Source of the DNA: Ectocarpus siliculosus
Taxonomy: Eukaryota; Sar; Phaeophyceae; Ectocarpales; Ectocarpaceae
DNA: 64,000 nucleotides
NCBI GenBank assembly: GCA_000310025.1
Contig: FN649758.1
Span: forward strand, 2,515,221-2,579,220
Direction: 5' to 3'
Under the pieces are notes generated by a model, which was given only the letters and a program-made list of their open reading frames with translations, did not search any database and was not told where the DNA came from. The translations under genes and the position numbers were made by a program. Positions 2,248-57,400 of this stretch are shown here, one piece after another. Numbering within the stretch: the first letter of the stretch is position 1; every line of letters starts with the position of its first letter.

Positions 2248-4682
2248 TCACATGCCCATGAACAGGCAAGACTCCAGTTTCCTGTCCAGGAAGAGATCCC
2301 ACCCTCCAGCGGCCGACTTCTTAAGGAGTAGACGTTTGGTCAAGAGGAAGATTGTTCCAAGTAGCCGACCGTCTTCCAGCAAATGCACTTTGTCGTCTAC
2401 CTGAGGTCATTCATTACAGGAGTGTGTAGCACGACGACGGTCACCATGTGTTCCCAACATATTCGTTGATACCTAACATTTTAATCGATTTCAGGCAATG
2501 AAACGCACTTTATCTCACTCGCTATCCCTTTATGACATTGCAACTTGTTCTTGCCATGCGTCCACATTGACCATAGGAACTGACCATAAGAACGATTGGA
2601 TGTGAGGTACCCTGCTCAACACCTTTCAGAGCTGCATCAACGTTAGCACTTGCCTGATGAAGAAGGTGCTGTGATGAGACATGCAACGTGGCCGTGGCGG
2701 AAGTCTCTTGATTGTAAATCTCGAAAACCAGGCCCTCTTTACCAGGTCGTCCCCTCTCTTTCGTGTACACGCTAAGTAGTACCTTCAGACCTCCAAGAGA
2801 AATTCCCTGACAAGAACAACACAACGAAACGTTGAGTATGAGTAGTCAGGTCAAGCAAAACAATGCAGAGGTTCTCGGGGGGGGTACCGACACTCGTCTT
2901 GACCATCCTTACAACGGGTAGGTGTCCATACGTCTACCGGCAACGAAAGATACTCTTGTCAGATTACCTGACACGTGGTTGCGAACAGCCTTATCCCCTG
3001 CGAAAATGACGTTAAACATCATTTTCACGCTCAAACACCGGTCTCTATTTATCAATACCAACGAAGATGGATACCCCCCCCCAAAAAAGTGAACTGAATG
3101 AAAGCTGAATGTCAAAGGCTCAAGCAAGTGCTTTGACATTTCTTGGCAGGCCGACCAAAAGTTGTTCGTGTTACTTATGAAGCAGGTGACACACTAGACA
3201 GTCGGGCTCAAGTTTGCATAAGTTCGCATCGCAACAACTGAAGGTAAAAAACCAAAGTACCGCCGTTCCTAACAGAACGTTGTCTAGGGGGTGATTCTTC
3301 CGTGCTTTTGGTGCAACCACGTCACAACAGGGGTTTACCCGTAGTTTAGTCTTCATGACAGCACGCGTGTGAACCACAAAGTCCAAAAAACACAGCTACG
3401 AAACGCTTACCTAGTTGTTTGCATTACTGGACTCGAGGACCGAAGCTACACCACGGACCGGAGCGGGTACCGAGACGAGAGACAATACACTAAAAATATA
3501 TGTACTACCTAGGAGAAACATTTCGCAGGCAATCACCTTGGATGTGATCAGATCACCATCTGTATCCGCCGGAACAAAGATGAGCGGCTGCCCCCGGGGT
3601 CTTTGGGAAGGAGGGCAGTCAGACGTATCCAGCTCACTGTATGCCACCAACCACGGCTTTTGGGCCTTAAACAAAAACTGATGAGCAAGTTTCAATGCGA
3701 GGGAGTACGAGTCAGCGTTGGGCGAGAGCTTCGGCTGGTTATCATATATCATGGTCTTTAATCGTCCGTACAATTTCCGCGAGAAAAGGATGTAATCTGA
3801 GAGCTACGTGTGCTACCGCCGATGGAGTGAAACACTCATACAAACATATACGGGCCTGGAACAAACATTTGACCGCCAAGATTGTACGCTTCGCGCCAAA
3901 CGTCATTGTTGTGAGCGTGAGGCTTATTCAGGGCCTACATCCGTATTGTTGATAGCACTACTCAGCTTGGTCGAACACCGCTCGCACTAACAACTTTGTC
4001 CTGCTCAAACTGAGATCTGCGGGCAATGGTCGGGGAGTGACTGAAACGCAAAGGAGCAGTGATCTACCATCACGTACCTCTGCTTGTAAGCCTTTTGATG
4101 AAGGTGGTAGCGATACGCATAGAAATCGTGCAGTTCGCCTTATCGCCGAGGATCGAGCTTCACCTTTGGGGATTTGGAATATACTCCGACCTTCAAGAGC
4201 ACGGGATTCAGGGAGAGGTGAAGTCTCTTGTTAAATCGCCAACCACACATACATTCCACAAGTGCGGGACATCCTTTATCAATTGGATTATGAGAAGCGC
4301 AATCGCTTTGCAATGTTTTTCTCTGGAAGCGAACAGACTATTTACAGGCTTATGTCCCACCTGGAACACTGAGTCACACCATCTTTACCAGATTCTCCCG
4401 TGCATGATACACGAGCGCACCCAACAATGTGGTCGCACAGAAAGCCTAGATTTGGAACGCATGGTTGGCAAACATGGAAACACACAAAGAAAAGAAGCAC
4501 ATACCAGTCATCATTTTCTGCATCGCGTAAGGCAGATCGATGTCGACGCTCTCGGTCAGCTTAGGGCAGTACAAGTTGAAGGTTAGCGACGGTCGCTCAT
4601 CGTCTTCGGCATCATCATCATCGGCCGTCACCGCTGGGACGGATGAGGGTGCATCAGTCTTCCCGAATACTGTGATAATCAC
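2248..4682 (-). CDS. C-terminal end of the giant gene
   Basis: Exons 4682-4505, 4190-4078, 3734-3537, 2997-2968, 2806-2654 and 2400-2248. The first continues a module (VIITVFGKTDAP, an acidic Asp/Glu run, then SLTFNLYCPKLTE). The 30-nt exon 2997-2968 (GIRLFATTCQ) and exon 2806-2654 (LGGLKVLLSVYTKE ... LVFEIYNQETSA ... SSQHLLHQ) form the last module. Exon 2806-2654 appears to end at a GC donor (CAG|GCAAGT), as other module exons end in the same place after Gln. The final exon reads LLLKKSAAGGWDLFLDRKLE and stops at 2250-2248, which I take as the protein's C-terminus. A GTGACG donor overlapping the stop cannot be fully excluded. Confidence 0.72.
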
Positions 4683-7600
4683 CTGTCAGGTGGGCATGCA
4701 TGCAATTTGAATATGTTTCCGATGCAGAAACGAAAAGATAGAAGTAACACCCTATGACAAACAAGGTCTGCGAGGAACAGGTGATTCAACATGTGGACCT
4801 GGGCTCAAGGGGGCTCACGAAATGCAGGGCTGACAACACTGCCACCACCCCCCCACCCACCCACCCGTTTTTATTGGGTGCTACATCCAGTTTGGTCAAG
4901 GGTTTATTATTCTATTACTCTTAAACTAACGACTTAGAATATTGTATAGACTTTAATCAGTATTGCAAAATAAAACCCGTCTAGCAAGAGCTGAACAGGA
5001 TTTCATTCGTGACCATACGAAATATGCATATGTAGGATTACAACTTTGTTACTCTTCGCAGTCGCTTCTCTCCGCTGGGACAGCGCTTTTTCTCACACTT
5101 TCTTCTGCATGGCACGGAGAGGACCCGTCGGTACATTACCCGTTACGTGTGAGGCTCGCGAGACACCAGTTGTGCGCGTTAGGGCCGCCTAAAGTCGCTG
5201 GGACTGGCTCTTTTTTCAGGGGTTGGGAATCCGAACCAAGAAAGCCTTCTCAAACGGCACGAAAGCTGAAAACAGAACTTTTTTTTACCCCGCGCCACGC
5301 GCCACGCGCCACACGCCACGCGCCCACGCGCCACGCGCCCACGCGCCCACACACCTGCTGCTGTGATTGTTGTGCACACAACCACCACACGGCAACTGGC
5401 GCATGCGTACCCACAGCGGGGATCAAGACTCTTGATGCCCTCGGGAACACACCACGCGACACAGAATATTCCTCTCCCACACCTCTGGCAGTAGCAAATT
5501 TGTACTTCGATTTGCATTTCAATTCCGAAAAATCGAAAAAGTCAAACATAGAAATTTGGTGCGGTAGCAGTCTACATCTATCTGTGACTGTTCTTGGGCA
5601 CGTTCAGCGTCTCTTTGATCCGTTGTTGTTGATGTATGCGTGAAACGTCCCACAGACCATGGGAAACACGATCACACCAGAAGAGAAAGTGATCAAACGC
5701 AGCGGATTACAGCAGTAGGACCTGCAGCAAACCGCTAGCCAAAACCACTCACTCGCGCACAAGGGAAAGTCACGGCGGGAGAAAAAAAAATACCCCGCAC
5801 ATATGATGCGACTTCCAGCCAAATTATTAGAATGCAGGTTGCACGCAAGTCGGCACTTCTGGACGTTATGACGACCAACCATGCGATCGCGATGGCATTG
5901 ATTGGCCATGTCTTGCGTCGCCCCCGGGAGGCAAATCACCTACCTCCCGCAGGGGAACCTTGTATAAATATATCGTTTGCAAGCACCCTACAACCACGGT
6001 ATTCTACCACCATCCAGTTTGCCGTGCTTCCAGTATTTCATTCCTTGAACCCCCGCTGGTTCTTGTCACATCTTGAGGGCCTCTATTGACCCCTCTTTAT
6101 TTACCCTGTCTAATAAGCCAGTTGTTATGGAAAGAATCCCGATATTACGCCTTTTACATCCAAACCCCCATGAGGCCGCAACAGATCTGCGTACTTCGTC
6201 GGAAAAGCTCACAAAAGCGCTTTGGCACTCAGTACTCGCCTCACAGAGACCCGTTTGCATTCAAACCTTCGAGACCGCGTAGAGCATTGCTGTGAGCCTC
6301 TTCGAGCCAAGTTTGGGGAGCTGCGGTGCAGTGTGTGTTCACCATGCTTGGTAAAATAGGAATTCCAATTTGAATTGCTGGACGATCCTGGTGGGAATTC
6401 CTCATGAATTCCCAACTGTAATTGGTTGGAATTCCAAATTGGGAATCGTGAATTTGCTTTCATATCATCGCACACTACGCACACTGCACTCTAGCTGCCC
6501 AAACTTGGCTCCGAGAAGCTCACAGTAGTGGAGTGGGTGTACAGCCTTATCGGTTAGATGGCAAACAGGGCTCTGTGAGGCGAGGACGAACTGACAAAGC
6601 GCTTTGGTGCTCTCTGCTTGCTGCCCAGTACGCAGACCTCCTACTTTTATGGGGTGGTGGAGCATTATCTGCCGATCCCCCGGATTCCCATCTTGGAAAA
6701 ATTTCCACTCCAACTGGCCTAAGACCCTTCTTTATGGAAACATAATCTTGCAATTATATCTTGGCATTTTGACCCAAAATTTGCTCACAATATATCTCCG
6801 CGAAGATTTGCAGTATCGCGATTTATGGGGGAAATATCTTGAATGTTGAAAAAGCGGCGTGTTGTTCCTCTCTTCTGCTTGAAGTTGAAAAAGGCACAAC
6901 GGCCACTTGGTCCACAGAAAATGCCAAGGTGTGGCGAAAAGTGAGCATGACGCAGTTGTAGAAGGGGCATCCCTCCCCCAGCTGTATTGCCTCAACACTG
7001 TGGGTGGATACTAGCGATGGGCGCCTACCTGGGGTGCAAAATTGAATTCGTTGCCCACGAGCTCATGTCAAGCGGAGAAACAAAACTGTTCCATTGCTGT
7101 CCAACTGACAAGAAAGTGCATCGACCCGAAGCCGATGACACCCATGCACGTATCTCACGATGTAGCAGGCGTACCGAGGTCAAACCTCCGGCGCTGTCAT
7201 CTGCACTCACGGATTGGCTCGGGTGCAAACGGGTCGGGTGTGGGGTGATTCGATGAAGAGATAGAAGCGTCGCACACGACAGAGCAGTGTTGGCAACACG
7301 TTCCTCCTCCTCTATTTTTCTACTTCAAAATAAAATACTCTTTGAACGGTCCCTCCACAGACTGGTGATGACGCACGTGGAACGAGCCAGGGCAAAAATA
7401 CGCATTTTTTTCGCGCGCCTTGGTTGTTTTCGTTCGCTGTCGGCGCCCGTGGCGCCGACATAGTGACGCCAGGGTGCGTTAGAGACCCTTGCGAGTGTGC
7501 CACGTGCAGATTTCATGGCGTTATGGACGATTAGGTTGACTGACCTTCGGTGATCGCGCCGCACTGAGGCAAGATTTGTTACGCCGCCTCAAGATTTGTC

Positions 7601-10600
7601 GGAAGGCGGAAGGCTCGTTTCGACAGATCTTGGGTCAAGATTTGTTCGAAAGGGAAGATTTCGGGCCTCGAGAAATCTTGGCCAAGATATATCGGAAGAT
7701 TTCGCTCCCATAAATCGTGAAACTGGCAGATCTTGGCCAAGATCAAGATTTATCGACAAGATTTTGTTCCCATAAATCGGGGTCTAATAATATAAGGGGT
7801 TTGGTGGCTCGGCCTCCCCCCTCACATCGTAGGGAGGCCGCACCTGGGGGATCAGCTGAGGGCATATGGCTCTCCGTTCCATAAACAACGTCCTCTTCGA
7901 GCTGTGCGTGTAGTATGGGTTAACTAATATGAATACACCGAAAGGCTGGCTGCCTTTTGATGCAAACAACACGCATTGCGGACATGAACAAGGGTGTCAA
8001 CACACATTCCCACCTCGAAATCCGTTACCCGAGTGGAAAACACTTCCAGCTTTGAAAGGCCCTTCCGCTTCGCGAACTTCAGAACCTTATCCCTTCGAGG
8101 TCTGGTCGTTTCTCCAGGTTGAACCTCATCCACAATCGCCAGGTTCTCACCGGACCATGGCACCACGAGGGTTGGAGAACCGTCGTGGGCGACCTGCAAG
8201 GATAGGTAAACAAGCAAGTTTTCACCGGCCGAGTTCGTTGCATCGTTGTGTATCATCACACTTGCTATTATCCATCCAGACGAACACATTGTCGGCATTT
8301 TCCTCATCATGTACTTTGATATGGTCATACGTGTAACATTATGGCTCACGAGCACCATCTATCTGCCTACACGGGTCGCCGGAAGGCACGGATGGAGGCA
8401 GTAGAGTGAGGTCTAACAACTTTTGTAAGTGCTCACCTTGAGGCGGAGGGCCCGTGCGATGATGCCGGCCAAAACCTCGCGTTTATCTCTGGCCATCCAG
8501 GGTGAATGCTGTCCGCCACCGAGCTCAAGAACGGCATCAGGCTGTGCCACAGCAACAAGCTGCAACCCAAGCGCGGTTCACAGAGTGGGAAACCATAAAT
8601 ATCACCATTCACGTAAAGCGCACTATGCTGCCACTACTTCATCCAGCACAAGTTTCGAGCTGACTTACACCGCACCAACCCTTGCTAGCATCACCTGAAG
8701 CTGTGTCTTGGGGTCATACGCGATAAATCGGAGAGATGGTGTTGCATCAGCACTTTTTTCTGGGGGTAATTCGTATCCCGTCATCTGGAACAGTGTGCTG
8801 CTGATGTTTACAGCACAGCGGAACACCTGTCGTCATTGGGCAGACAAGAATAGACGTCTGGATGAGGCAGGCCAATGGTGTAAACTAAACGGGTGCGTCT
8901 TTGAGGCGGGTGAGAATTTCGTTCTGTGGCCAACAAAGTGTACGATCGTTGTTGTGGGCGACGACAATCACATTAAATACATTGGTCTACGTTGTGGTTC
9001 ACCGTCGGGCTGGGTAATTGATCAGTACACACATCATAGGGAAGAGCGATCTTCCCCCTCTCGTTGTATGGATGGATATCCAGCGCCAAGGCAACGGGCG
9101 CATTGTAACCTCCACGTTCGTATGATAAAGAATCGTACGCCTGTTGCGTGCTTTACTGTACAAACAACAAATATTCAAAGAACCAATGCGGAAGAAGCTC
9201 TTGCCTACACGGAGTAAAGACGGTGTTCAAACACCAGTCTCTCGGGGAACAAGACGAGAGAGAATATTTAGTTGCTATGGCTTGCGTAAACCTGTTCAAA
9301 CCAAAACTTCGTGATAAACCGCCATGCGCATCGTGTGCGATCTCTGACCTTTTTTCCACGTCGGTCGGCGCCATCGATGAGCCGATTGGCGTTGGCCTGA
9401 GCATCTTTCTCCCCGGAAAGGTGGACGGGTGTTTGCTTGAAGGAATTGTACAGTCTGCTTCGCTTCAGTACTACCGTGAAGTCCCTGCCATTCTCAACAT
9501 ACCCATCGCAGTCACCATTCCATTTCCCGACCACGATCATGGCGCGTTCGTGAAATATGAAATTAAACAGAGCTTCAGCCGTTCCGTCGCCCTCTGGTTG
9601 ACGCCTCCACTCGTGTGCGAGCGATTGGTTCAGCGCTCCAACAACCTACGTACAACAAGCGGATCATGCTTGTGGTAAGGCGTTGTGGCAAATTGGAAAC
9701 CTGGCGGTTTTCTTGGTTTGGCGCCCCTAAGGCAAGCAAGGAATCCCTTCCCCTGGACCGGCACAAGTTGCTACATCTTCACACACTCAAACCCTCTTTT
9801 GTGTATGCATATGCCAAATCATTTGGCGCAATGAAAGCTTCAATCAGTTAGACGGGGACACTGGAAAAAAAACTACTGTTAACAAAACAGACACAAGGTG
9901 GAGGTAGGTGTGGAACCTACACAATAGTTGAGAGAGAACGTTGTCGGCGGTTCCTCCGCTACAGGTGAGTAACTCAATACCAGGGGGCACTGGAGCAACC
10001 TTGTTAGGTATCAAGACTTTTGGCACCACGCCTGGTCAGAAGGAAACACAATGCATCTGCACGGCACGTGGGTTTTCTCAATGGACTAAAATAAAATTTT
10101 TGTACCGGTATTGGGTACTGGGACGCCAGTTCGAGCGCACCAGCACGAAATCTGACATTTTCCGACAAAAATGCCGGCCTGAACCCGACCAGTTCTTACG
10201 ACGCTATCAAAACGCATTTCGTGTCGAAAGCGAGGAGTCGGTCGACCAACAAAGCAAAAGTTTGCTGAGAAACCCTTGAAGTTCACGGGCATCCTCACGA
10301 GGCCATGGTATTGGCCAATCCCCGATGTTCAAATGTATGCTCACCCAACACCTTTCAAGGATAAGAATGTAGAATATTGTCACGAACTTCCAAGCGCCAT
10401 TCCTATTCCAAAATATCTTATTGAAGTATTCAAGGACGAAGCAGAACGTCCAACCAAATCTGCGTTGTTTGCACACTCTACGATACCTGGCGAAGATCTT
10501 CGAAACCTTTGATCGATACTTCCGCATACGCCCCAAGTTTCGAGTAGTACACCGCCGCACGCAGGCACGATTCATCGTCGACAGCAGAAGATGAGAAGAC

Positions 10601-13600
10601 GGTCACCACCGTATCACACACTGGTTGATGCTCTTCCCAGTCATTTTTTCGTATCGAAATTGCTCCGTGAAAGATGTTGCGTTCGCCACTTCGCGCCAAG
10701 CATATAGGTGCAGTCCCACCACTGACAGAACGAATAGGATCCACCTGAGGCTCATCCTGCGGTGAATATCAAAGTGATGACACCATGCGCATGTTGGTAG
10801 GTCATGGATCTGTTCGGACGCCACGGCGCAAGTTACAAGCTTTACATACTGGAGGTACTTATCAGGTCACGCAAATGAAAGTGTCGAAATACGAGCGCTT
10901 CTAAATATGCCAAACACAAGGTTGGACACTGGGTACATTGACTCGCTCCCTGGGTACAGGCCTTGTGTGACAGTCGTGCCCCCGTTGCCGCGGCGGTGAT
11001 GCTGTCAGATAACATGATTCCGTCTCTGAGCTCGGAGAGACCTGCGCTCGGGCTCCCGCCTTCATTTACAGGCTTCTGGAATTTGTCTCGTTTTCGCTTT
11101 CCTTTCTTACGTTTTGGTGATTCCCTGCAATGCAATCGTAACCGTAAGATGAGAATGCTGTCATCAACAACGCGAGATGTTCATGCGTTTTAGTCATGAA
11201 CCGTTAGTTGGCTTCCTTTTTCGCAATCTGAAGCCGACATCTGCCTTCGACAACCAAACATTGTCCTATGATCAACGCTATGCACAGCGTTTGACTGTTT
11301 TCCCACATCCTGCTCTTTCCCCGCTTGCTTTCGGTCATTAGGGTGCACTGTCATTTGCAGACGCGGTGAACATCCACGACCCTGACAAGTGGCGAAGTAA
11401 TTCAAACACAGCACAAGCAACACCTGCGACAAAACCATGTCACTCAACCGCTGATGTAACAACTGGCTCCGACATCACACCTGGGGGTGGAGTCAACTAT
11501 CCGGTTCTTGCCGGTTTGCCGCATGCGAGGAGACAAACGTCCATGTAGTAGAACGCACGGCTGATGACGCTGCTTGAGAAACCCCGCGACAAAACCGCAA
11601 CGCCCGACGGCGTACGATCCTGTCCTGGCTTGTGAGAAAGCGATCGCCATGGTACTCTGAGGGCGTCGTTGTTGCGCGATGATCGAATACTCCATTGCAC
11701 TGATTCTCGAGTCCCCATCGATAGAAAGAATAACGCTATTGGAGTCTGGAGCGAAACACAGATGGCGCGTGAGCTGACGCACAGCGGCTTCTCTGCTTCC
11801 AGGTCCAATTAGCATGCCGGTCATCGCACCACTTTGTCCAGAACATCGAGTAGTGGAGGTAGCCCTAGTCCTAGAGTCATCCGTCTGAGAGCCGTTCGGG
11901 CAGGCCGTGCATGGCTCAAGACCCAGCGCTGCAAGGTCCTCTTCAGTGAGTAGAATGCGGCACTGTTTCGAGGTGTCAGCTTGATACAAATCGAGTGCGA
12001 GAGATTGCCCAGCATCTGCCAGTTCTGCCCGCATTCGGAAGAGGCGGGCGTCAATCCGTCCCGCAGCTACCCGACAGGCAGTTGAAAAAATTGTCTTGTC
12101 CAGGAGCATTGTTCGTCTGGCTGGAAGTGGCTCTCCCGGTGCCTCCGCACCCTCCATGATGGTGGTCTCCGTTGTTCTCCGCAAGCTTAAACGCGGGCAT
12201 AGGTGCTTGATCCAATACTTACGATCGTCGCCGTTGCAACCAAAAAAAGCTCGTTCAGCCTTTGAAATCCCGATTCCATACGTCATGCTCGTCGCTGGAT
12301 CGTAAGCAGTCAAACGTAGCCCCCCCCCCCTGCCTAGCTCCCACACGGACACGACATGAGGAGCTCCAGATATGACGCAGACGGCCCGAAGCACGCGCCT
12401 ACCGGGCCCACCCTTGACCGCAAGGAAACAATGTAGCAGATCGGTCGCAAGGCATACCTGGTCAGCGATTGCTTGTTCGTGCTACATCATCATATGCGTA
12501 TCATATTCTATTCGGCACGCACCTTGCAGCGGATTTTAAGGACGAAACCTTGACTGGACGATGTCATCTTCTTGCCACCACATCCTGCACCCATGGTGAC
12601 AACAGCTGCTCGTGACGGCGATATGACGAGTCGATCAGTAACCGGAACAAGAAGGCGACCAGTGTCTTCGCTCGTGATCGCTTGCCGCTCTCCTGTCACG
12701 TCGCTGCTGTCTTGAAGCACCTTCTCTAGTAACCTTGCGTCCACTTTGAGCTGGATCCTTGCCGCATGGTCTGCAAGATAGAGGCAATACCGAAGCTCGC
12801 CTTTCGCCTCCTCGTACACGGTAACTTGGGCACGATATCCAGATATCAATCGAGTATCGCGAAGAAGACATCGGAGGCGCCGCTGACACACCAAGTGCGG
12901 CACACCCCAACACACCTGCTTGTCGTGTTTGGTCATTCGCCAACACCGCAATAAGATTACTCGACGGCTGTAACAAAAGTCGTGGAAGTCGTATTTGCTG
13001 GTGATGCCGTCATGTAGTTCACATATTTTTCTCCACTCAAAATTAACGTGTAGATCATATTGCTAGATACTGTCGTTAGGTTACGTAACTGACCGTATTT
13101 AACGGAGCGGCCTCGAAGCTGAGAAGGGTTGCGAGGCGCGTAAACATGTCTTGCCGATCGCAAGGCACGGTGCTCGGTCCGAACTCGGGTGGTTGATCCA
13201 AGGCAGGGGCCAGAAGATGGCTAACCTGCGACACAAGGATGAGGAACACGTGATCGAATAACATCCAGCATCAGGCAATTCGTGCGAGAATGCCTCGCTT
13301 CGCTCTACCGAAAGAATGTATGCGTGATGGACAAGAAAAACACTTCGATTGATAATTCACCGTATTCGCAGCGGCGTAACAATAGCTTTTGAAGTTCAGC
13401 ATGAGCATTTTAACGCCTTAGGTCCCGTTTGGGCATACTGCGCTACCTTACTCTGTTTAGGATTCGTCAGATATCTGCTTCTTAATTGCGAGCTAGTTTC
13501 GGAACACTTTTCCTAGGTCTATCACCTTGTACCTCTGTATCTTACACCCGGATCAACCTGTGACGGATCAACCTGTGACGACGAAGTCTTGTCTCCTATG

Positions 13601-16600
13601 TTTGTCCTATATTTTGCAGGGTACCCAAAGAAGACAGACAAAAGTAGGGAGGGGGGAGAATGATTTCATTGTGAAGACAACCACGAAAGGAAACCACGAG
13701 CCTACGTGCACATACGTTCCACGCGTACCTTGCTCTCCTCAATGACGCAAAAGTTGCTGACACAGGATTCTGGATCGTAGGTGTGGAAAAACAGCCGCCC
13801 GCATTCCTGGTAGATCTGGTGTGCGTGCAAGAAAGCAGGGAAAGGTACTCGGTCAGAATCTTGGATGTGTCCCTAGAAGGTGTTTTTCACCAGAGGAGGA
13901 TATGACCCAACACGTTTGGCGGCTAGCCAGCCTGCCCCAGGATGCCATCAGAATCTGCAAAGAAACGTGATCACGAGCCATTGCCTACCTCGATGACGTG
14001 AACACCCGCACGAGAAGAACCTCGAATACGCCTGGCCACTCGGAAAACCCGCACATCCTCCAGGACAGCAGTCACAGTCTGGTAATAGGCGGCCCTCCAC
14101 CTGCCAGCCGCCACGACATTTGACACACATGCCGTGCAGTCACGCTCTTGTGATGCGGCCGGCGTTTCCAACTCCAGAAGCATACAGAATTATCGGTGCC
14201 TACAAAGAGTACACCGTATGTGCGTGCGTCGCAAAACAAACCATTGCGAGGAGGACAAGTTCCAGATCTCACCCTCGTTTGAAATGGACGTTGCGGTCCC
14301 GCTGGGTGCAGATATTCGCGTCATACATCGGCACCACGGCTGCCAACAAGCCAACAGGGGCTGTAGAATAGTGGCATAGAGCCTTTGGACGTCCTCCGGC
14401 GTTGGTGAGGAGGGCAGCAAACTCTATTGTTGAGCACGACCAGGCCGCCAGGACGTCTAGGACACCGCCATCACTGCCTGGTGCGCAAGCTTTGCGAGGC
14501 CATCCGTCATGTCCAATGTATGCCTGACAGTGGTAATAAACGTTTCCAGGACGACCAGCATGGCGGATATCGCACTCACGCAAGAGTTGAAAGACACGCT
14601 ACATAGAGCAACACGGGTCTCCAACGGTGATTCTTGCTGGCCATGCTTGTCACTCGGTGAACATCAATGAAAAGCCAGCAGCAGCTCCCTTTCTCACCTG
14701 CAGCGTAGAAAGGTTCGCCGGAGGGATACTGAAAGAATCTACCCGTGCAATCGCAGCGCACAGCTTGTCAGGGTTCCCTAAGATGTGCCGAGCCTCCGTC
14801 CACGTTACTCCCCTCAGAGATGACAAAGGGATATGGTTGTGAAACACTGTTTCTGGAGAAAGCAGAATTATCAACGCCTCCATCACAAGCATGTGGGACT
14901 GCGACGGTGGGGTGACGGCCTGTCCCATTTTCGCCATGGCCTCCATGAAGGTGGAATCCTGGAATTCTTTGATTATACGAGCTACGATTTCGAGCCTCCT
15001 TTTCATTTCTCCATCTCCCATCACAGACAAGTCACGGTCGTTGCACCCAACGGAGCCGTCGAGCGGTCCTCCGGCACGATTTTTGCTATCGCCAACCACC
15101 AAAACGAATTTTGGCGCCGGGATGAGCGCGTCTTTGGCGATAGCCAACTTGTGCAGAAACGCTCTCCTGCATCGTTTACCGATACCCATGTCCACGTTGC
15201 ACACTACGCTACACCTGGTGCCACAGTGGGAACGAAGCTTCATGTCAGGCGTGACGTGATGCATGCACTGCACCATCATGACGAGACCGAAGCAGTGGCA
15301 CATCAAAGGTCGAATTATACTATGTAGCAGGTGTGCCATGTGCCGAACTACAGTAGTACGTGGGCAGTGTGAGATCGGCGTAGCAATCGCGCCGTTGGAA
15401 TTTCACGGATGATAGAGACACTAACGTCATAATCACGCACAGGGCATCCCCACCTGATCGACAGAGCTCGCTGTAGGTCACCAACATGAAGACCCATGTT
15501 CCTTTCCTCATCCATGTGGACTGTTAAACCTGGAAGATCGCTTTCAAGTTGTTGTACGAGTTTCGTTTTCGCTGATCCCGGCAAGTCTCGACTCAAGCAG
15601 ATGACTATGGGGCGTGGACGTTGGAAGGGTCGAACAATCGTCGCGGGTGGTACAAACTGGGTTGCTGCCTGTGCTTCGTATCTCGCGCATTGCTCGTCTT
15701 CTCGAAGATCTTCCTCCCGCTCTTCTTCAGATGGGTCGTCCCACTCGTGAGGCAGGACCGTCTCCTCCTTCTGAAGCTGCAAACAGGCGATTGGAGCAAT
15801 TCTGCTATGAGACAACTTCCGTGTAGGTGTGCACTTCATTTAATGGAAAACTTCTTGTGATGAGGATACTCAGGCACTCACGCTCATCACTCACCTCGGC
15901 TTCGTTGGCGAGCGCGTTGGCGTTTTCTTGCTCCTCTGCCATACAACCTAGTCGTGTTCGTGCTGTGGCCGCCGCCGACTGTGCCTCTTTCGTCCTTGCC
16001 TGGAGCAACTCCAGATCGTGATTGCGAGAACCTGCGGATGTAGCCCCTCTGTCCGGGTCGTATTCGCTCAGATCTTCACTGGCCAAAGTAGACGCGGCCT
16101 CTAACTCGCCCACCACACGCACTTGATGTCGGAGATCTCCCCACACCTCCACATCTACACCTCTGCGTTTGGAGTTACGCCTTCTCTGTGTTCGGAACAT
16201 CTCCACGGAAGCCCAACGCTCTCGACGAACCACCTCACATGTGGTTAGCTCATCAAGACAAAGCTGTAGGTGAACCTGGTCAGTTTCGATCCCATCTCGA
16301 GCTGCTGTTTTTGCTTCTTCAAGTCGGATCAGGCTTTCTGCCAAACTCTTTTCAGTACGATTGAGGTCATCGACAAGCGTGTCCTCCCTTAGTTGCTCAC
16401 GAGCCTTGTCGTTTCTCTGGGCATCCTCTTCTTCTTGTCTCGTCTTGGAAAGGGCATCTCTTGCGCATTCTTCGTGCGACTTAAGCGTTTTCAAAGCACG
16501 CTCCGCCACGCGTAGGCGGAGGTTTCCCCTCATCCTCGAGGAGATAGCCTTTGGTTTTGGCGCCGTCTCACCCGATTCAAGGAGAACCTGCTGCACGCAC

Positions 16601-19600
16601 GTGATAGCGTGTTCCCATACCATGCGCGAGAGCTCCAGATGGCGCATACCACGTACACTTTGTTGAGCACGTGCCACCCAGGGCATGCGGTCGCTGCCAA
16701 TTTCATCAGGAAACTCCCTTTGATACGCGAACACCTCCTGCAGTGCATCGACCCACATCATAAGATGCTGGCAGGCTTTGGCCCCACGGCCAACGAGACC
16801 TATCTTCGATACGTTCCACCCCTGATCGCATCGAAGGGCAGCGTACACCTGCACTGCCGCCTGAGAAAAGTACACCATTCGTGGTCGTCTATTTGAAGGC
16901 CCCTCTGCTATTTGGCGTAAGCGACGAAGGAGCTTGCAGGACCTGCGGAGAAGAACGAGTGCGTCACGCCATGAAAACTGTACTGCTGGGCGCAAATTAT
17001 TCACTGATTTCACGCCTAACGCATTGTACCGGGTTGTTGCTCCCGATTCGGCGTCCTCCTCGAGCATTAGCGCGACCACTTTCAAAAGCCCGAGGACGAT
17101 GCCAGGGAATGCAGCTGCACTGTCCTTCACAAGGAGCGACTCCACTGCGTCGGCAAGCTCGACGATGTCTTGGTGAAATAGCTGTTTAACCCCCACCACT
17201 TCTGATCCTCTGCTGGCACTCTGCCGCAGACCTCGTTTGTGGTCAACTCGTCGCCGGCCGCTACGCCCTCTAGCTATCTTCTGAATGGACCGCGCAGCCA
17301 TCGTTCTCTCCAGCTTCCGGCGGTCGGAGATAGAAGCAAAGCGACCGAGGTGACCGCGCCATACACGCTGAATATTAGTAACAGCTCGCTTGTCGACTAT
17401 CTTAAGCCCAACTCGCGACCGGCCAAGGCGGCCACGTATGATGCCCTGGATCTTGGTGGCAGCGTAGTTGAGAACGGGGCGGAGTTTTCTCACGCGTGTA
17501 CGACCTTGGACACCACGCGTAATGCGTTGGACTTGGGTAGCTGCTCCATCTTCTAAAGTGTACTCATCATCTTCGGATGGCTCAAGAAGATCGGGATCTT
17601 GTTCAAGCAATCTCCTCTTCCGTTCGAGTACTTGTGCTCGCTTCTTGTTTTGTGACGTCCTCTCGTTGGTTTGAAACACTACATATTGCTCTTGTAAGGC
17701 TACCTGTCGGCGTGTCTTCCGTTCAACTTCGTCACACTTCCGTTGAATTTTCAACGCGGCCTCGCCAACTTCCGCTGGAGAACCCTGCCCCAAAACTCCA
17801 CATGTGTACCCTCTTTCTGCTGATGTGTATCCGACCAATCCATGGCACGGGTTTTGGTCTTGTGATACTTCGGAGCTTCTCGATTGGGTCCGAGACTTCT
17901 CCGACAGATGGTGTCGAAGATCTTCCAACTCCTGTTGCAACTGTTTATTTTGTTGTTTTCTGTGCATCATCTCGGCGCGGAGTAGTGCGCCTACAGACCT
18001 GCAAGCAGGCAACGGCATGGTGAAGAGGAACAAATCTAGACAAGCGTGTGTGCGTGTACGCAGACATTCAACTGCCACTGATGTAAGCTTGGGGCCTTTC
18101 TTCACGAAAAGTAAGACCTATCAGCTTCTTGATTGCACACTCCGAAGACAGATAAAAAAGGTAGAGTATTTTTGCCATCCTTTACATCACGTTTGCTATT
18201 TTTATTAAGTCTGTGTAGGCGGTGCTGGTCAACATGACACAAAGCCCAGGGTGCAATCGCTTCTGTGGTATAACTTACACGCCGAAAAATATCGTCCCCC
18301 AAAGAAGAGGCCTTCTGCGTGGCCCCGACTCTATCAAGGTGGCACACGGAGAGAGACAATAGTCTACTGTTGTAGAAAATTGTGGTATGACAAAAAACAC
18401 CACTCGAGGTTGAACATTACAATGGACTGTAAGCTGGAATCCACCTAGCCCTCTTCAGACTTGCCATTGACTACAGTTTCAGCTCGTGAAGGTACTCTGA
18501 GAAGCACCTGGACGAAGGGCGCAATAGCCCTGGAAATGAAGAGGCGGGTAGGCGGGCATATTTTGGTACTGCTCGCCCAGGTCACCCCTGGCTACCCCAT
18601 GTTCTGTGTTATTCTCAAGTGCGTTCCCATCCTTACACTCTAGCACTTGGACCCAGGCAACACGTGCCCACCAACGCCTTTCTACGAAGCCAGTCAAATG
18701 AAGCGCCTGTGAGAGATACCTGCCCGGAAACCCAACCCACATCACATACTGGAAGAACACTTTCTTGTCGCTCAACATTTTCAGTTTGTTCCCTGAAAGA
18801 AACTTACTGTACCTTCCTTCGACAGACCTAAGCGTTGCCACCGACTCTCGCACCTTCGGATGACAGGTGGCCTTTTCCGTGGAGGTGCTGAGTGGACGGT
18901 GACTGGACGAAGCTTTCCACCCGCCCGTTTCGCACTGGCCTTGCCGGAAGCGGAAGGGATAGAACTTGGCTTGGCCAGTCGGTCGCTGATGTCTGAAGTC
19001 AAACCACCAAAGTTATAGGATGAGTTCTCCTCAGGTACTTGACCTACACCAGCAAGGGCTATGAAAGGGGCTGAAACGCTGGCCGGGAGATGCATTCCTT
19101 TTTTGTCATCCAGCACTAGCTGGCGAGAAAACTTGCACTTCTCAGCGGTGCCTACAGGAACCAATCGGGCAGAGCTGTCCACAGTGTACCTGACGGCAAA
19201 AGCGACAATCACGGAAAATGAAGGTGAGTAGTGTAGCGCGTGAGGAAAGCACCAACAGATGTCGAGCAGCGAGCGCGCGCTGTTGACTAGTTCGATTTCC
19301 AAGGGAAGCATGTGCCTTTCCGCTGGGTCTCATTTGCTGGAAGCGATCTCAAGTATATTCGCAGTAGCCCAGGTCAAACGCGGCCAAACAAGAGGCACAG
19401 TTCAGCCAACAAAGTCGGCTCCGCCTCGTGGCTACACTTTGATGCAGTTCGTCCAGAATTCCGTGGTACAATTTGAAGTCAAGGTGGTTAAAAGTCCACA
19501 ATTTTTATCGGAAATAAAAGTAAAATAACAGTTTTGTGCGGGTTTCCTCAATGTCAACATAGTGGACGCATATGCATCCGCTACACGGGGCTCGCGTAGA

Positions 19601-21181
19601 CTATTGCGTCGGGTGTTCTATTGCTCGGGTACTTGTCTGCGTTGACTCCCCCAGCGCGCTTCGTTTAACATACATATATACCCGTCTTCCTCATGGTTGT
19701 TTCAACAAACTCCAGACAAAGCTTGTGACTCGCTATCTTACGCGTGGCTCGAGTGTCCCTCTTCTTTACTCTTGCTTTCCCATCTAATGGACGATAAAAC
19801 AGCGTGCAACGTGTTCCTTTTTCAAGTCCATTCTGCAAACAAGCACACTTGATACGTGGAACAGACACTTTTGCACCTGTGCTTAGTTGGTGTGCCATCA
19901 TCAGGTACATCCTGTATCTCTGTGTTGGCGCCTACCTTTGCCCTCTGTGCAGCTGTCGAAACGCGAGCGACGACATTTTACTTCGTATGGAAACGGAAAC
20001 AATATGAACACCTTTCATGCAAAAACGTTTGGAACGAGTTTGTATACGCCCAGTACTAGAGGGCATGGTAGAGAACTTTCGCAAGGTGTGAAGTGGCGCA
20101 CGCTGGCCACTCAACACGTTCCTAGGAGCGATTACCTGCCATGCAAGACCTCTTCTTGCGCAATCACGGCAGCCGCCCCTCTAATCCGCATCATATCACC
20201 ATCAGCTATCGCGCTCCCACCTACACGCAAATTGCTGGGTGCTGGATCCCACTCGTGCATATCCCTGGTAGTCGCACGAGGATATGATCCGCCCACCGAA
20301 AAAAAACCTTGTTTGTCCTCCGAGAAGGCGTGGTGCCCAGGTCGGGATGCCAAGACGCCTCCCAGAGCAAGCTTTTCCGTAGGTATGGGAACAAGAAACG
20401 GGTTCCGCCTCAAGCTGACCCTCAGCCACATGCGCAACGGCTGGGCATAATGGGAACTGGCGTTAGATAGTATAGCCACAGCTACGGCATGCGCTAAAAG
20501 TGTTGAAGCAATCGCATACTCGTACTTCGTGCATCCGTTGAACGTGAGTTTGCCATCGTACTTGAAGCAAGTAAATGCTTATAGGCAGTGTAAAGGGCTA
20601 AGGACCACGGTTGTAGTAGTAGCGCTATGAAGCAGGTAATGAGACAAGCAAGGCGACAGGCACAATGCTCCGGGTGGGGATTGGTTCACATACATTATAG
20701 AATAGTAGAAAAAAAATCGTACAAGCTTGTTCAACAGGTCCCGAGCAGAGATTCCAGAATGCTATACTTACACAACAGCGTAGCTCACCGCATGAGAATC
20801 TAGGAAGTCGAGGTCGCTCCCGATCTTGAGGAGGTAGTTAACACTCTTCCAGATGAAAGGTGCTGCGGGATTTCCTTGGATCCTTCTCCATTGCTCAATT
20901 GCTTCCACTGTGTCGACGGTTGCAGTCCGTAGTAGATCTACAAGGCTGATAAGACCATCGAAAGCTTCTTGGTCCTTGCCGAACTTCGACTGATGATTGT
21001 CCAGGTTTGCCTTGACCCGCAAAATGTATTCCTCTCTGAGAATAATTGCCTTTGCAACCTCTACCTCGTGATTTATGCTCTGGCGACGGCCTTGCTCCTG
21101 GAGGGGAGGGACGGCGTCACCCTCGCCAGAGGTATTCTGTGCGCTAATCTGGGGCAAGACGACCTCATCCTCATGCCACAT
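2248..21181 (-). CDS. Giant IQ-motif / dynein-stalk-like multidomain protein (about 25 exons)
   Basis: Reconstructed exons, 5' to 3' on the minus strand: 21181-20789, 20440-20136, 19189-18813, 17990-15895, 15776-15454, 15208-14698, 14523-14273, 14100-13989, 13815-13729, 13225-13094, 12882-12523, 12412-11481, 11124-11070, 10756-10487, 10351-10299, 9150-9003, 8784-8695, 8559-8437, 8193-8014, 4682-4505, 4190-4078, 3734-3537, 2997-2968, 2806-2654, 2400-2248 (TGA at 2250-2248). The phases match at every junction, giving about 2,540 residues. Order of parts: alpha-helical N-terminus, coiled coil with four IQ motifs, P-loop-like segment, dynein-stalk-like segment, then about eight copies of a C-terminal module. 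IQ motifs normally bind calmodulin or myosin-type light chains, so a calmodulin-regulated, possibly cytoskeletal role is an inference. The least certain points are the start (the frame is open back to about 21.33 kb), the joint at 18.8-18.0 kb, and exons 11124-11070, 10351-10299 and 9150-9003. An annotation pipeline could split it into two or more genes. Confidence 0.75.
5285..5352. repeat. CGCGCCAC-type minisatellite
   Basis: Tandem, slightly irregular copies of an 8-9 bp unit (CGCGCCA with an extra C in some copies). It creates repetitive Arg/Ala/Val and His/Ala/Pro reading frames on both strands that should not be read as genes. Confidence 0.85.
6080..6735. mobile_element. Fold-back element with long inverted arms
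   Basis: The left arm (about 6190-6345) and right arm (about 6475-6630) are diverged inverted copies. Shared blocks are AAAGCGCTTTGG, GCCTCACAGAG, GAGCCAAGTTTGGG and GTGCAGTGTG. Weaker similarity extends outward to CCAGTTG near 6118 and its inverse near 6710. The centre is AT-rich with repeated GGAATTCC-like palindromes. This is the layout of a fold-back or hairpin-type non-autonomous DNA transposon. No transposase was seen. Exact ends and target duplication were not resolved. Confidence 0.6.
6728..7795. mobile_element. Element with inverted AAGATTT-rich subterminal repeats
   Basis: The right part (7570-7790) repeats CAAGATTT or AAATCTTG many times and includes CCCATAAATCG twice. The left part (6730-6850) has the same motifs in the opposite orientation (ATCTTG, CGATTTATGGG). 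Clustered short subterminal repeats in inverted orientation are typical of hAT- or Mutator-like non-autonomous elements. No transposase frame is visible, and the exact boundaries are unclear. Confidence 0.45.
7438..7460. other. Perfect GC-rich hairpin
   Basis: TGTCGGCGCC then CGT then GGCGCCGACA: a 10-bp stem with a 3-nt loop, inside a giant-gene intron and within the AAGATTT-rich element. Whether it belongs to that element is unknown. Confidence 0.8.
8014..11124 (-). CDS. C-terminal module array of the giant gene, part 2
   Basis: Exons 11124-11070 (basic, KRKKGKRKRDK), 10756-10487, 10351-10299, 9150-9003, 8784-8695, 8559-8437 and 8193-8014. Clear module pieces are VVTVFSSSAVDDESCLRAAV, SLRFIAYDPKTQ and the following LELGGGQHSPWMARDKR with IIARALRLK. 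Exons 10756-10487, 8784-8695 and 8559-8437 are strong: good splice sites, phase 0, module match. Exon 11124-11070 could end at other donors. Exons 10351-10299 and 9150-9003 are inferred because their phases (0 to 2, 2 to 0) bridge the gap exactly, but other frames are also open there. Exon 8193-8014 could instead end at 8151. Confidence 0.62.
11481..14100 (-). CDS. C-terminal module array of the giant gene, part 1
   Basis: Exons 14100-13989, 13815-13729, 13225-13094, 12882-12523 and 12412-11481. They carry diverged copies of one module of about 60-110 residues. Its pattern is a hydrophobic R-x-L strand, a Gly turn, a V-x-V strand, an acidic or Gly loop, an L-x-x-x-x-Y strand often ending YDP, then a Leu-rich helix. 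Copies: VFRVARRIRG then FFHTYDPES; LRCLLRDTRLISG then VTVYEEAKGELRYCLYL; RVLRAVCVISG then VVSVWELG and LRLTAYDPATS; and a weaker one around SLALDLYQADTSK. The short exon 13815-13729 is below normal ORF-finding size but fits phase and module exactly. The last exon's acceptor (AAG at 12415-12413) and donor (GTGTGA, phase 2) are my choices from reading-frame and phase fit. Confidence 0.72.
14273..15776 (-). CDS. P-loop-like and dynein-stalk-like segment of the giant gene
   Basis: Three exons (15776-15454, 15208-14698, 14523-14273), phases 0-2, 2-0 and 0-2. The first is acidic and then carries a beta-strand plus loop reading VICLSRDLPGSAKTKL, which looks like a worn-down Walker A P-loop: the glycine spacing is wrong and the GK[ST] core is replaced by SAKT. 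The second exon holds FVLVVGD, then VMEALIILLS, followed by WTEARHILGN and IPPANLSTLQ. The third exon begins AYIGHDGWPRKA and goes on to LAAWSCSTIEFA. This order (VMEA..L, W..A...L, I....L..Y, L..W......Y) is the pattern at the base of the dynein heavy-chain stalk (MT region, Pfam PF12777 by family knowledge). There is no AAA ring around it here. The dynein link rests on motif reading only. Confidence 0.75.
15895..17990 (-). CDS. Coiled-coil and IQ-motif exon of the giant gene
   Basis: A single open exon of about 698 codons, by far the longest in the window. It begins with a Gln/Lys/Glu-rich coiled coil (KQQNKQLQQELEDLRHHL). It then has four IQ-type repeats around 17.55-17.22 kb: AATQVQRITRGVQGRTRV, AATKIQGIIRGRLGRSRV, AVTNIQRVWRGHLGRF and AARSIQKIARGRSGRRRV. 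A mostly helical middle follows, then a charged coiled coil rich in Glu, Arg and Leu that ends in NALANEAE at a GTGAGT donor. The upstream boundary is uncertain: acceptors at 17990, 17998 and about 18050 are possible, and only the first and third keep phase with the 18813 donor. IQ motifs bind calmodulin or related EF-hand light chains in known proteins. Confidence 0.88.
20136..21181 (-). CDS. N-terminal segment of the giant gene (exons 21181-20789 and 20440-20136)
   Basis: The first exon is Met-initiated at 21181 and mostly helical, with an acidic and Gln-rich start. It ends in a segment reading NYLLKIGSDLDFLDSHA at a GTGAGC donor (phase 0). The second exon begins after a TATGCCCAG acceptor with PLRMWLRVSLRRNPF and ends in phase 2 at a GTAATC donor. 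The sequence across the joint reads like one continuous helical domain. I do not recognise a named family. The frame is open upstream to a TAG near 21.33 kb, so the 5' end may include more coding sequence or an upstream exon whose acceptor lies around 21.2 kb. The 348-bp intron is typical for this locus. Confidence 0.7.
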
Positions 21182-54400: not shown

Positions 54401-57400
54401 CAGACACAGGTATTTGGTTATCTCTATGCTCGTGTATCGCTAACATTGTTACGTTTACTAGATTGTGCGAGTTTTTTTTATGTGAAAAATATATCCCTGC
54501 AGCAATCTACTCCCACCCGTGTTGCAGGAAGCTACAAAAGTATGACTAACGGGCTCCGCGAAACTCGATGGTACCCCACTTGAGCCCCCAAGATGTGTTG
54601 CCCTGTGACACCATCTGGTGCGCACCTTTGTCACCGCTGGTACTCCCACCGATAGCGACGTGCTAAACCAGCCGGATACCTCTAGCTTGTTACGTTTACA
54701 TGCGAAGACATTTGGTACGCCCTGGTTTCGCTCTGAACCTGGCAAATGCCGTGCTATCAAAAATTAATAAGTTGTTGATTCAAGCCCGTTTCGCAGCTCT
54801 CAGCACCAAACTTCACGCTGCTATATACCTGCGAAGGAGTTGACGAACTCGCTCGAGACTTCGCCTGAGTGGATTACATAGGAATAGGTATTGTTAGGAT
54901 ATATCCACTACGTGGGTCGTTCCAGTGAAGCACTCTATCGCCTATCTCGAGCAAACACGCCCCGCGCGTCGACCTCCAATTTTGTTTGGATTTCTCCGGC
55001 AACATCCTCCGAAATTTGACCTTCAGCGCTCTACATGTGTATACACCTAAAAAAAATGATCCAGTCCAATTTTTTTTATGGTATCACGCTGTAGAGACTT
55101 GCCAAAGGTTCCTTTTGAGGGTTGGCCATATTTTGGATCGCCACTGCAGCCGGAGTTGTGGCGAATTTGCGGCCCGTCCTTGTAGGAAAACGGCGGCTGT
55201 GGGGGCTCCGCGTCAACGATGCCTTGTGGTATTACGAAATAATGAATGGCTTTTGTGGGGACTTGCAACAAGGGTGGCACGTCTATTTTGAGCCGGGTGG
55301 GGTTTGGGGAGGGGGTGATTCAAACCCGCGCGCGGAATACCTGCCCCCGTCGTTCAGACAAAGTGGACCAGGGAAGGGAAGAATCGCACACTCAAGGGTA
55401 GGGAGGTGTACAGCATCACAGCAGCAGCTGTGCTACATCATCATCAGTGTTGTGTGTGTGCTGTAGCAGTGGGTGTGTGGTGTTCCTCTGTCTACTCACA
55501 GCTTTGTTCTTCAAGCACAACCAACACGTTTTGAGCGGGAGCAGTTGTGATAGGTCACTTTTAGGCAAATGTCCAGTGCACAAATATTGGCTCTAATTTT
55601 TGTTGCCGTGCTGGTGGGATCGGCTTGAGTCCACTGCTCAAAGATCCACCACGAACGTATACATGGTCGAATTTCGCACGCACTGGAAGTAGCTTTGTTT
55701 TTCGCACGCAGGCGCACGCCTCTGCCCGTGTTTCCGGGGAATATCTTACGCAACGTTTTCTTTCCGAAAAGCCACCTCATTGCGAGCTGCGATGGTCCCT
55801 CCCAAAACAAGTAGTTTTACACGAAAGCACGGTAGTCGTCTGAAAAAGCCCAGCGAAACGTAACGTGTTGAAGCATACGGCAGTTGTTGTGCGCACTTTG
55901 CCTCGCTAATATGTACTAAAGGCCTTGGAGATTCATCAAATTTCATGTAGTAAATACGACTGGGGCCCAATTGTAGCAGGAGGAGGTCGTCATTAGGTAT
56001 AAAGTGCCCCCGGCGACGGTAAGAAACCAGTGTCACTCACGATATGTGGCCAATCCAACATCGCCATTCCACGCGCAACTTTAACAAGCTCAGACAGGAC
56101 ATGGCAGTTTGAATGCACGCGTTGCGAAGTTTCCGTTTCTGCAGATTTCGAGGCGTTGCAAGGCAACGTATTCGCTTTGATGACAACGTGCATGCCCAAA
56201 TAACTTCCGTCAGCTCTGCAGGAGCTTCCCTACCTCGAATTGTTGTAGCCCCTGGGCTAACTCGATTTCTTCCTGCGCGCTGGCCTATTTGTTTGGCGCG
56301 GGCGGGGCAACCCTCCGGATCCTAGCAACTCTAAATATTCAGTTGCTGTAGTTTGGCAGGATCGCTGACCCCAACACAACCTTCCCCACGACCTCAGCTG
56401 GACACAGTTATCAAGCTGCTACCTCGGCTCCAGTATGGGCTTGATGTCAACGTACGCTTCAATAGTGTCCGCGGCTTCGAATTCACTGAGGAGATGGCGG
56501 CGTTCGACATGAGCGGTGTTACTCTGCTGCACGGGTGGATCTTAGACCCAGAGGACAAGCACACGGTGAGGGAGTATGTTATCGATAGTTGAAGATACCC
56601 CTGGCCACAGCACGTTACTTCCAATTTACTTGCTTGACTTGGATACTCTGTCCGCGTGCATTTGCCCATCTCTGCTGCCATCGTAGGGAAGCGTCATCGA
56701 AGGGATGTCATACAACAAGCTAGTTGAAAAGTTACTAGAATTCCGATCTTTGACGGTTGAAGCATCGGGCCCCAGGAAGCAAGACTTTGATAACGTGGGA
56801 GCCAGGCAAAATGTCCCGAGCGACAAATCCGAAAGCAACGACCACCAGGAGGCAGGATCGACGAATTTCGCGAAGACTGCGGGGGAAGAAGATGCTGGAA
56901 CCCAAGCGCAACTCGTGACCAAACCATTACAAACAGCTCAAAGCGTTGGCGCGGTGGTAGTCGACGATGCAAGTGAGCCTTTGGGAGAGAATGCTCCAAC
57001 CCCAGTGAGAAGAAGCGAAGAGGATACTGGTCAGGAGGGACTTTCTTCGGCATCGACGATCACGCGTCAGCAGGGTTCCGAGTCCATCTTGCATCGTGAA
57101 GAGGGGCTTCCCACAGACAAATGTGCACGTGCTTCAAGTGTTACCTCGGAAACAGAGTCTGACAAGATGGCGACTGCTTTGAACGAGGGGCAAGTGGCAG
57201 AGGAGTTCTTTCGAGAGACGGCGAGCCAGCTCACATACTACGGCCTGTCACAGTTGCACCAGGAGGTACGTGACTACAGTAGTAGTTATGTTGCGTATGT
57301 TACCGCTGTTCTCTTGGGCAAAAATCAAGGCGCATAGACGCTTGCGATGTTGAGAGAGAGATGTCGTCCTCTAGTCAATACGGATGATTATTCACTTCGC

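Follow-up and report, generated by a model that had tools for sequence, protein, structure and literature searches.

The window, the 64,000-nucleotide stretch of Ectocarpus siliculosus DNA analysed here, carries on its minus strand a spliced gene model whose predicted protein (W) joins an N-terminal domain, a set of four IQ motifs, a P-loop domain that has degenerated, a segment whose sequence remotely resembles dynein's microtubule-binding tip, and eight C-terminal modules. A second gene of the same genome repeats this layout. Our leading interpretation, which we hold tentatively, is that W would be a non-motor linker of microtubules or axonemes that responds to calcium and calmodulin.

The locus is modelled as one gene of 23 exons

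The spliced gene model runs from 21181 to 2248 on the minus strand and contains 23 exons, which encode 2,620 aa in an unbroken frame that ends with a stop at 2248. All 22 introns are GT-AG, the phase is kept and there is no internal stop. The exon joints were set by eye, with the module motif partly as a guide. Several of them are provisional, namely both borders of E13, the junction of E15 with E16 and the acceptor sites used for E11 and E12, as is the choice of 21181 for the start methionine. The sequence-only reading had linked 25 exons in phase on one strand into a protein of about 2,540 aa; its strand, phase and coordinates stood, but the count became 23 and the protein is about 80 aa longer. 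The domain order proposed there could be rebuilt in a single gene model, with the IQ motifs, the degenerate P-loop, the dynein-like part without AAA and about eight modules all present. The features and exons are as follows.

20384..21067, minus strand: N-terminal domain, aa 39-150 (E1 20789-21067, E2 20384-20440), the family signature
17245..17532, minus strand: four IQ motifs, aa 512-607, in E4
16714..16953, minus strand: helical segment in the middle of E4 (E4-mid), aa 705-784, common to the paralogue on contig C135
15895..16488, minus strand: charged coiled-coil-like stretch, aa 860-1057, in E4
15454..15656, minus strand: degenerate P-loop domain, part 1, in E5
15037..15214, minus strand: degenerate P-loop domain, part 2, in E6, ending in the shared motif SKNRAGG
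14698..15009, minus strand: tip-like segment, first part, in E6, from aa 1234
14401..14523, minus strand: tip-like segment, last part, in E7, to aa 1378, with the last helix poorly matched
2248..14100, minus strand: eight-module array, E8-E23, from leave-one-out profiles
Exons, minus strand: E1 20789-21181, E2 20136-20440, E3 18813-19189, E4 15895-17990
Exons, minus strand: E5 15454-15776, E6 14698-15214, E7 14273-14523, E8 13989-14100
Exons, minus strand: E9 13729-13815, E10 13094-13225, E11 12523-12915, E12 11481-12457
Exons, minus strand: E13 11070-11124, E14 10487-10756, E15 9921-9999, E16 9349-9572
Exons, minus strand: E17 8671-8826, E18 8437-8559, E19 8014-8193, E20 4505-4682
Exons, minus strand: E21 3537-3796, E22 2585-2806, E23 2248-2400

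By leave-one-out codon usage, the modelled frame scored best against the other five in 18 of the 23 exons, the misses being E2, E9, E10, E16 and E21. When intronic windows of the same length were scored, the exon score was reached by 253 of 1000 for E9, 94 of 1000 for E17 and 81 of 1000 for E15, and by at most 23 of 1000 for each of the other 20 exons.

Between E19 and E20, an intron of 3.3 kb holds nested imperfect inverted repeats at 6210..6609, outside the protein, with arms of 58 and 54 nt that are 81% complementary; such an insertion would be MITE-like. A direct repeat of 22 nt lies at 7696 and 7758. Elsewhere in the window, positions 56690-57334 of the plus strand are part of a MINDY deubiquitinase gene (PF04424, 2.1e-8).

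W contains four IQ motifs and a degenerate P-loop

Strict IQ motifs occur at residues 512, 539, 565 and 594, as many as had been claimed, and the shuffled protein never had more than two in 2000 shuffles. Pfam IQ was also above its cut-off in W (22.9 and 23.7 bits versus 20.3). A genome-wide search with PF00612, in which 150 of 205 candidates were scored, listed four other places and not the W gene. Besides IQ, the exons and joined segments of W that were compared with Pfam (all but the 18-residue E13) gave sub-threshold chance matches only, and no P-loop family was among them. In the coiled-coil-like stretch, 37% of residues are charged, there is one proline, and the heptad hydrophobic fraction is 0.33-0.75 per block by a rough heuristic.

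The Walker-A-like sequence DLPGSAKT was located by reading at residues 1121-1128 (15564-15587). Measured against the usual consensus, it keeps the lysine and the threonine and has two of the three usual glycines replaced, in agreement with the degenerate P-loop described earlier. The corresponding stretch of the C135 paralogue is LGLDLPASVREEV, which is without GK[ST]. An active P-loop NTPase or kinase was rejected on these grounds, since W is missing the intact Walker A glycines and C135 the GK[ST].

The N-terminal domain defines a seven-gene family

The genome searched comprises 189 Mb in 492 contigs; C2, C3, C15, C20, C22, C27 and C135 are contigs of this genome and serve as names for the genes on them. 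Genome-wide searches with the N-terminal exon, the C15 domain and the C20 piece as queries identified seven genes with the N-terminal domain: W, C2:3318540, C2:3371895, C15, C135, C3 and C20. The C3 and C20 rows are partial, and the weakest listing was C3 at E 0.02 (0.001 in another search). The core W..NYL.K...D..FL is common to the paralogues. AlphaFold2, given seven paralogue rows, modelled aa 1-131 as three helices (mean pLDDT 82.3, pTM 0.69).

None of the seven N-terminal domains was over a Pfam cut-off, with one sub-threshold match in one member, and the best match in the PDB had an E of 0.13. Single-sequence PDB searches gave best E values of 0.28, 0.27, 0.55 and 0.7 and no convincing relative, and no relatives were found for E4 among viral contigs or for E1 among prokaryotic genomes. 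The sequence-only reading could name no family for this protein; Pfam indeed gives no label beyond IQ, yet W belongs to a family of seven genes in this genome. These paralogues rule out a single-gene curiosity.

The relatives are unspliced, and downstream frames were placed with each gene by position. Downstream of the N-terminal domain, ankyrin repeats and a WW match below threshold lie in C2:3318540 (L025/L026), a sub-threshold IQ match in C2:3371895, and a segment like the dynein tip plus, by reading, one module in C15. C20 carries a module piece, and acidic or low-complexity frames follow the domain in C3 and C15. A long run of N extends from about C2:3384500 onward (L032-L033), downstream of the C2:3371895 relative. 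Because ankyrin and WW-like frames lie downstream of the domain in C2:3318540, we suggest, from sequence, that the N-terminal domain may be mobile.

A paralogue on C135 is collinear with W

In the paralogue at C135:38804 (L034/L035), five domains of W were matched in the same order, each with 0 of 500 shuffles reaching the score: the N-terminal domain, IQ plus helix, E4-mid, the P-loop and the tip-like segment. The diagonal pair was top in all five rows of the five-by-five comparison, and the best off-diagonal pair was reached by 19 of 500 shuffles. Like W, C135 has the five domains in order and a module array, all on one strand. It differs from W in a more degenerate P-loop, big insertions, an IQ match that is sub-threshold and an absent dynein signal.

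In searches of the whole genome, E4-mid of C135 returned, besides itself, only the W gene (E 0.002, among matches listed to E 0.1). E6 (to E 0.1) and E11 (to E 1) of W returned the W gene alone, the C135 gene not being returned with E11. With the last module of C135 as the query, the matches were that module and a single place at E 0.88, and not the W gene. A shared domain order in relatives had been set as the test that could refute the earlier proposal; run within this genome, it found five shared domains in C135. That C135 has the same layout points to a real protein family, which present domain libraries leave unlabelled.

Eight modules form the C-terminal array

About eight C-terminal modules had been claimed and eight were found, starting at residues 1438, 1544, 1682, 1785, 2039, 2196, 2339 and 2498, with borders picked by eye. 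In leave-one-out profiles, five of the eight beat all 500 shuffles, and the others fell behind 1, 4 and 16. A profile built from the modules of W only detected modules in C135 (0 of 300 shuffles) and in C20 (0 of 300); against C15, 44 of 300 shuffles reached the score and no module was found. No Pfam family was over its cut-off for the modules.

We modelled module 2 (E11) with AlphaFold2, using six other module pieces as rows. Its first half has four strands and a helix, with pLDDT of about 75-88 per block over residues ~11-70 and below 50 from residue 74 on. The module was compared with head domains of the SAS-6, CCDC61 and XRCC4 type, with the whole-head fold as the reference, and its structure neighbours are middling. 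On the model, the modules are predicted to be beta-rich, and they are unclassified.

The dynein-like segment resembles the microtubule-binding tip

The sequence-only reading had described a dynein-stalk-like part without the AAA motor. The dynein likeness and the absence of AAA in Pfam were upheld, and the identity shifted from stalk to tip: the dynein-like part of W corresponds to about positions 76-214 of PF12777 (MT), the microtubule-binding tip. The stalk coil was rejected as the homologous part because the match falls on the tip. In profiles with C27 and C22 (described below), W residues ~1234-1378 are remotely similar to the MT of dynein heavy chains (PF12777; 2rr7, 3err, 6rza). Unlike dynein, W has no AAA+ ring or linker in Pfam and no neighbouring stalk coil by eye; its segment sits between the dead P-loop domain and the module array; and its last helix, which is absent from the profile alignment, is poorly kept. 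In dynein, the last tip helix carries much of the tubulin contact. A dynein heavy chain motor was rejected as an identity for W, since Pfam scans show no AAA+ ring and no N-terminal or linker domains. Pfam MT was not found in the exons and joined segments of W or in the two long frames of C135, and a genome search with PF12777 gave 29 matches, none of them in the W gene.

Two other genes of the genome have a tip domain outside a motor. Pfam MT was matched in C27:970059 (L055:785-2998; 5.8e-9, span 90-206 of 344) and in C22:556715 (L008; 2.1e-19, span 76-206 of 344), each in a frame without another Pfam match. Their downstream part reads as alpha/beta-hydrolase-like, to which Pfam gives no match. 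C27 and C22 are like W in having a dynein-tip domain outside a motor, and unlike W in that the stretches read for them, of 3.0 and 3.4 kb, showed no evident N-terminal family domain, IQ or modules. When the C27 tip was searched against the genome, it matched C27 and C22 alone; the W gene and C15 were not returned.

We then scored the tip-like segment of W with profiles, using segments chosen by eye or after seeing the matches, so that their scores are flattered. A profile of the genome's own MT exons (C22 piece included) with C27 gave 20.9 bits (0 of 1000 shuffles, best shuffle 5.3), and four control windows gave 40-452 of 1000, the window on module 2 being the one at 40. The C27 and C22 profile gave 20.2 bits (0 of 1000, best shuffle 13.6), and a combined profile of all sequences gave 21.4 bits (0 of 1000, best shuffle 7.3). 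A dynein-only profile without C22, with exons assigned as dynein by their PF12777 match and not by motor domains exon by exon, gave 2.4 bits, a score that 4 of 1000 shuffles and none of the 37 control windows of W reached. The first small profile, with C22 and without C27, gave 67 of 1000 by best-domain score; it differs from the 4 of 1000 in that C22 was then removed, other build options were used and whole sequences were scored, and the two strengths disagree. Among 1003 ORF tiles, the segment ranked first with two of three profiles, and with the dynein-only profile it was outside the best nine. A match of W to one of the genome's own dynein exons (11 residues, 16 of 1000 shuffles) was set aside as too weak.

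Against the PDB, a profile of C27, C22, C15 and W returned 85 sequences to E 1, and the best 60 of those 85 are either tip constructs or entries named as dynein heavy chain, DHC or AAA+. Since 2rr7 and 6rza, which are short chains, and 3err, a fusion of the tip, were matched, the matched part is identified as the tip. These matches are probably carried mainly by C27 and C22. Profiles of W, C135 and C15 and of W and C15 returned no dynein. The family member C15 matches PF12777 at E 0.0059, below the curated cut-off. The tip counterpart in C135 gave 108, 112, 98, 207 and 119 of 1000 shuffles with dynein profiles, and thus no dynein signal. Taken together, we conclude that the dynein link of W is a remote sequence similarity that leans on C27 and C22.

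With the dynein-only profile, the first of the 1003 ORF tiles was E4-mid, at 4.3 bits with one helix matched. It gave 3 of 1000 shuffles with this profile and 258 of 1000 with the C27 and C22 profile. E4-mid ends in a helix that looks like helix 6 of the dynein tip, and the coiled-coil-like stretch comes after it; in dynein, too, helix 6 is followed by a coiled coil. From its sequence, E4-mid is possibly a second degenerate copy of the tip.

Possible functions of W

From its IQ motifs, tip-like domain, dead P-loop and long array of modules, we tentatively propose that W is a calcium/calmodulin-responsive, non-motor scaffold or linker of microtubules or the axoneme; we infer its location and its binding to calmodulin and to microtubules. 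The IQ stretch would be occupied by calmodulin, or by light chains resembling it, and calcium would stiffen or release this stretch. The dead P-loop domain would play a structural part, and the tip-like domain and the module array would anchor W to the tubulin lattice or to axonemal partners. The genome holds PF12777 exons and a radial spoke gene, so that motile flagella are likely and a flagellar role is open to W. In oomycetes, one study found both IQ (PF00612) and PF12777 to be under-represented in the Peronospora lineage, linked this to flagella loss, and named P. halstedii as the only flagellated downy mildew among those it analysed (PMC6264045).

In a broader form of this proposal, for which we have somewhat less confidence and which we offer as a possibility, the dynein tip was freed from the motor and reused in non-motor proteins, namely scaffolds (W, C15) and a second type (C27, C22). 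W would then have as many as two degenerate copies (E4-mid and E6-E7), alternating with the coil and the dead P-loop, and would be a calcium-gated passive microtubule linker.

It is also conceivable, if rather unlikely, that the tip-like fold is kept only for protein-protein interaction and that W is a scaffold in signalling or at a membrane, dependent on calmodulin, which does not touch microtubules directly. At C2:3318540, which is one gene by position, the N-terminal domain is followed by ankyrin repeats and a WW match below threshold; at C3 and C15 the frames that follow it are acidic or of low complexity. The poorly kept last tip helix of W fits such a role. However, this explanation does not account for the recurrence of non-motor tip-like domains in C15, C27 and C22.

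We consider it improbable that the dynein likeness arose by chance or from a convergent helix pattern, which would leave an ordinary IQ scaffold family with unclassified modules. Such an outcome would agree with the lack of Pfam MT in W, with the failure of the W+C15 and W+C135+C15 profiles to reach a dynein, with the absence of a dynein signal in the C135 segment and with the first profile, which 67 of 1000 shuffles reached. It is harder to reconcile with three profiles that no shuffle in 1000 reached, with the first rank among ORF tiles for two of three profiles, with the position above all 37 control windows, and with the match of C15 to PF12777. Very improbable is a model that fuses at least two adjacent genes, such as one with the IQ motifs and one with the modules, or describes a decaying copy: the coding signal is weak in E9, E15 and E17 and an inverted-repeat insertion lies within the 3.3-kb intron, yet C135 keeps the same domain order on one strand and 22 introns are crossed in phase with no stop inside.

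Relation to known systems and significance

Like IQ scaffolds and IQ-plus-AAA ciliary proteins, W has tandem IQ motifs and a P-loop-type domain. It differs in that no AAA domain was found, and its N-terminal domain and modules are below Pfam cut-offs. No dynein tip in an IQ scaffold was found in the titles and abstract openings of the literature searched. IQ scaffolds and dynein tips are each known, and their union in this order, together with two Pfam-unmatched domains, was not seen in those titles and abstract openings. The W family may be known elsewhere under locus names, and novelty is judged here within this genome.

The microtubule-binding domain of dynein is usually treated as part of a motor. 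If our reading of W is true, a free-standing tip in calmodulin-binding scaffolds would show motors donating parts to passive linkers. It would also provide a gene family for tests in the flagella of organisms with calcium-controlled swimming. W also supplies two domains without a Pfam family over the cut-off, the N-terminal domain and the module.
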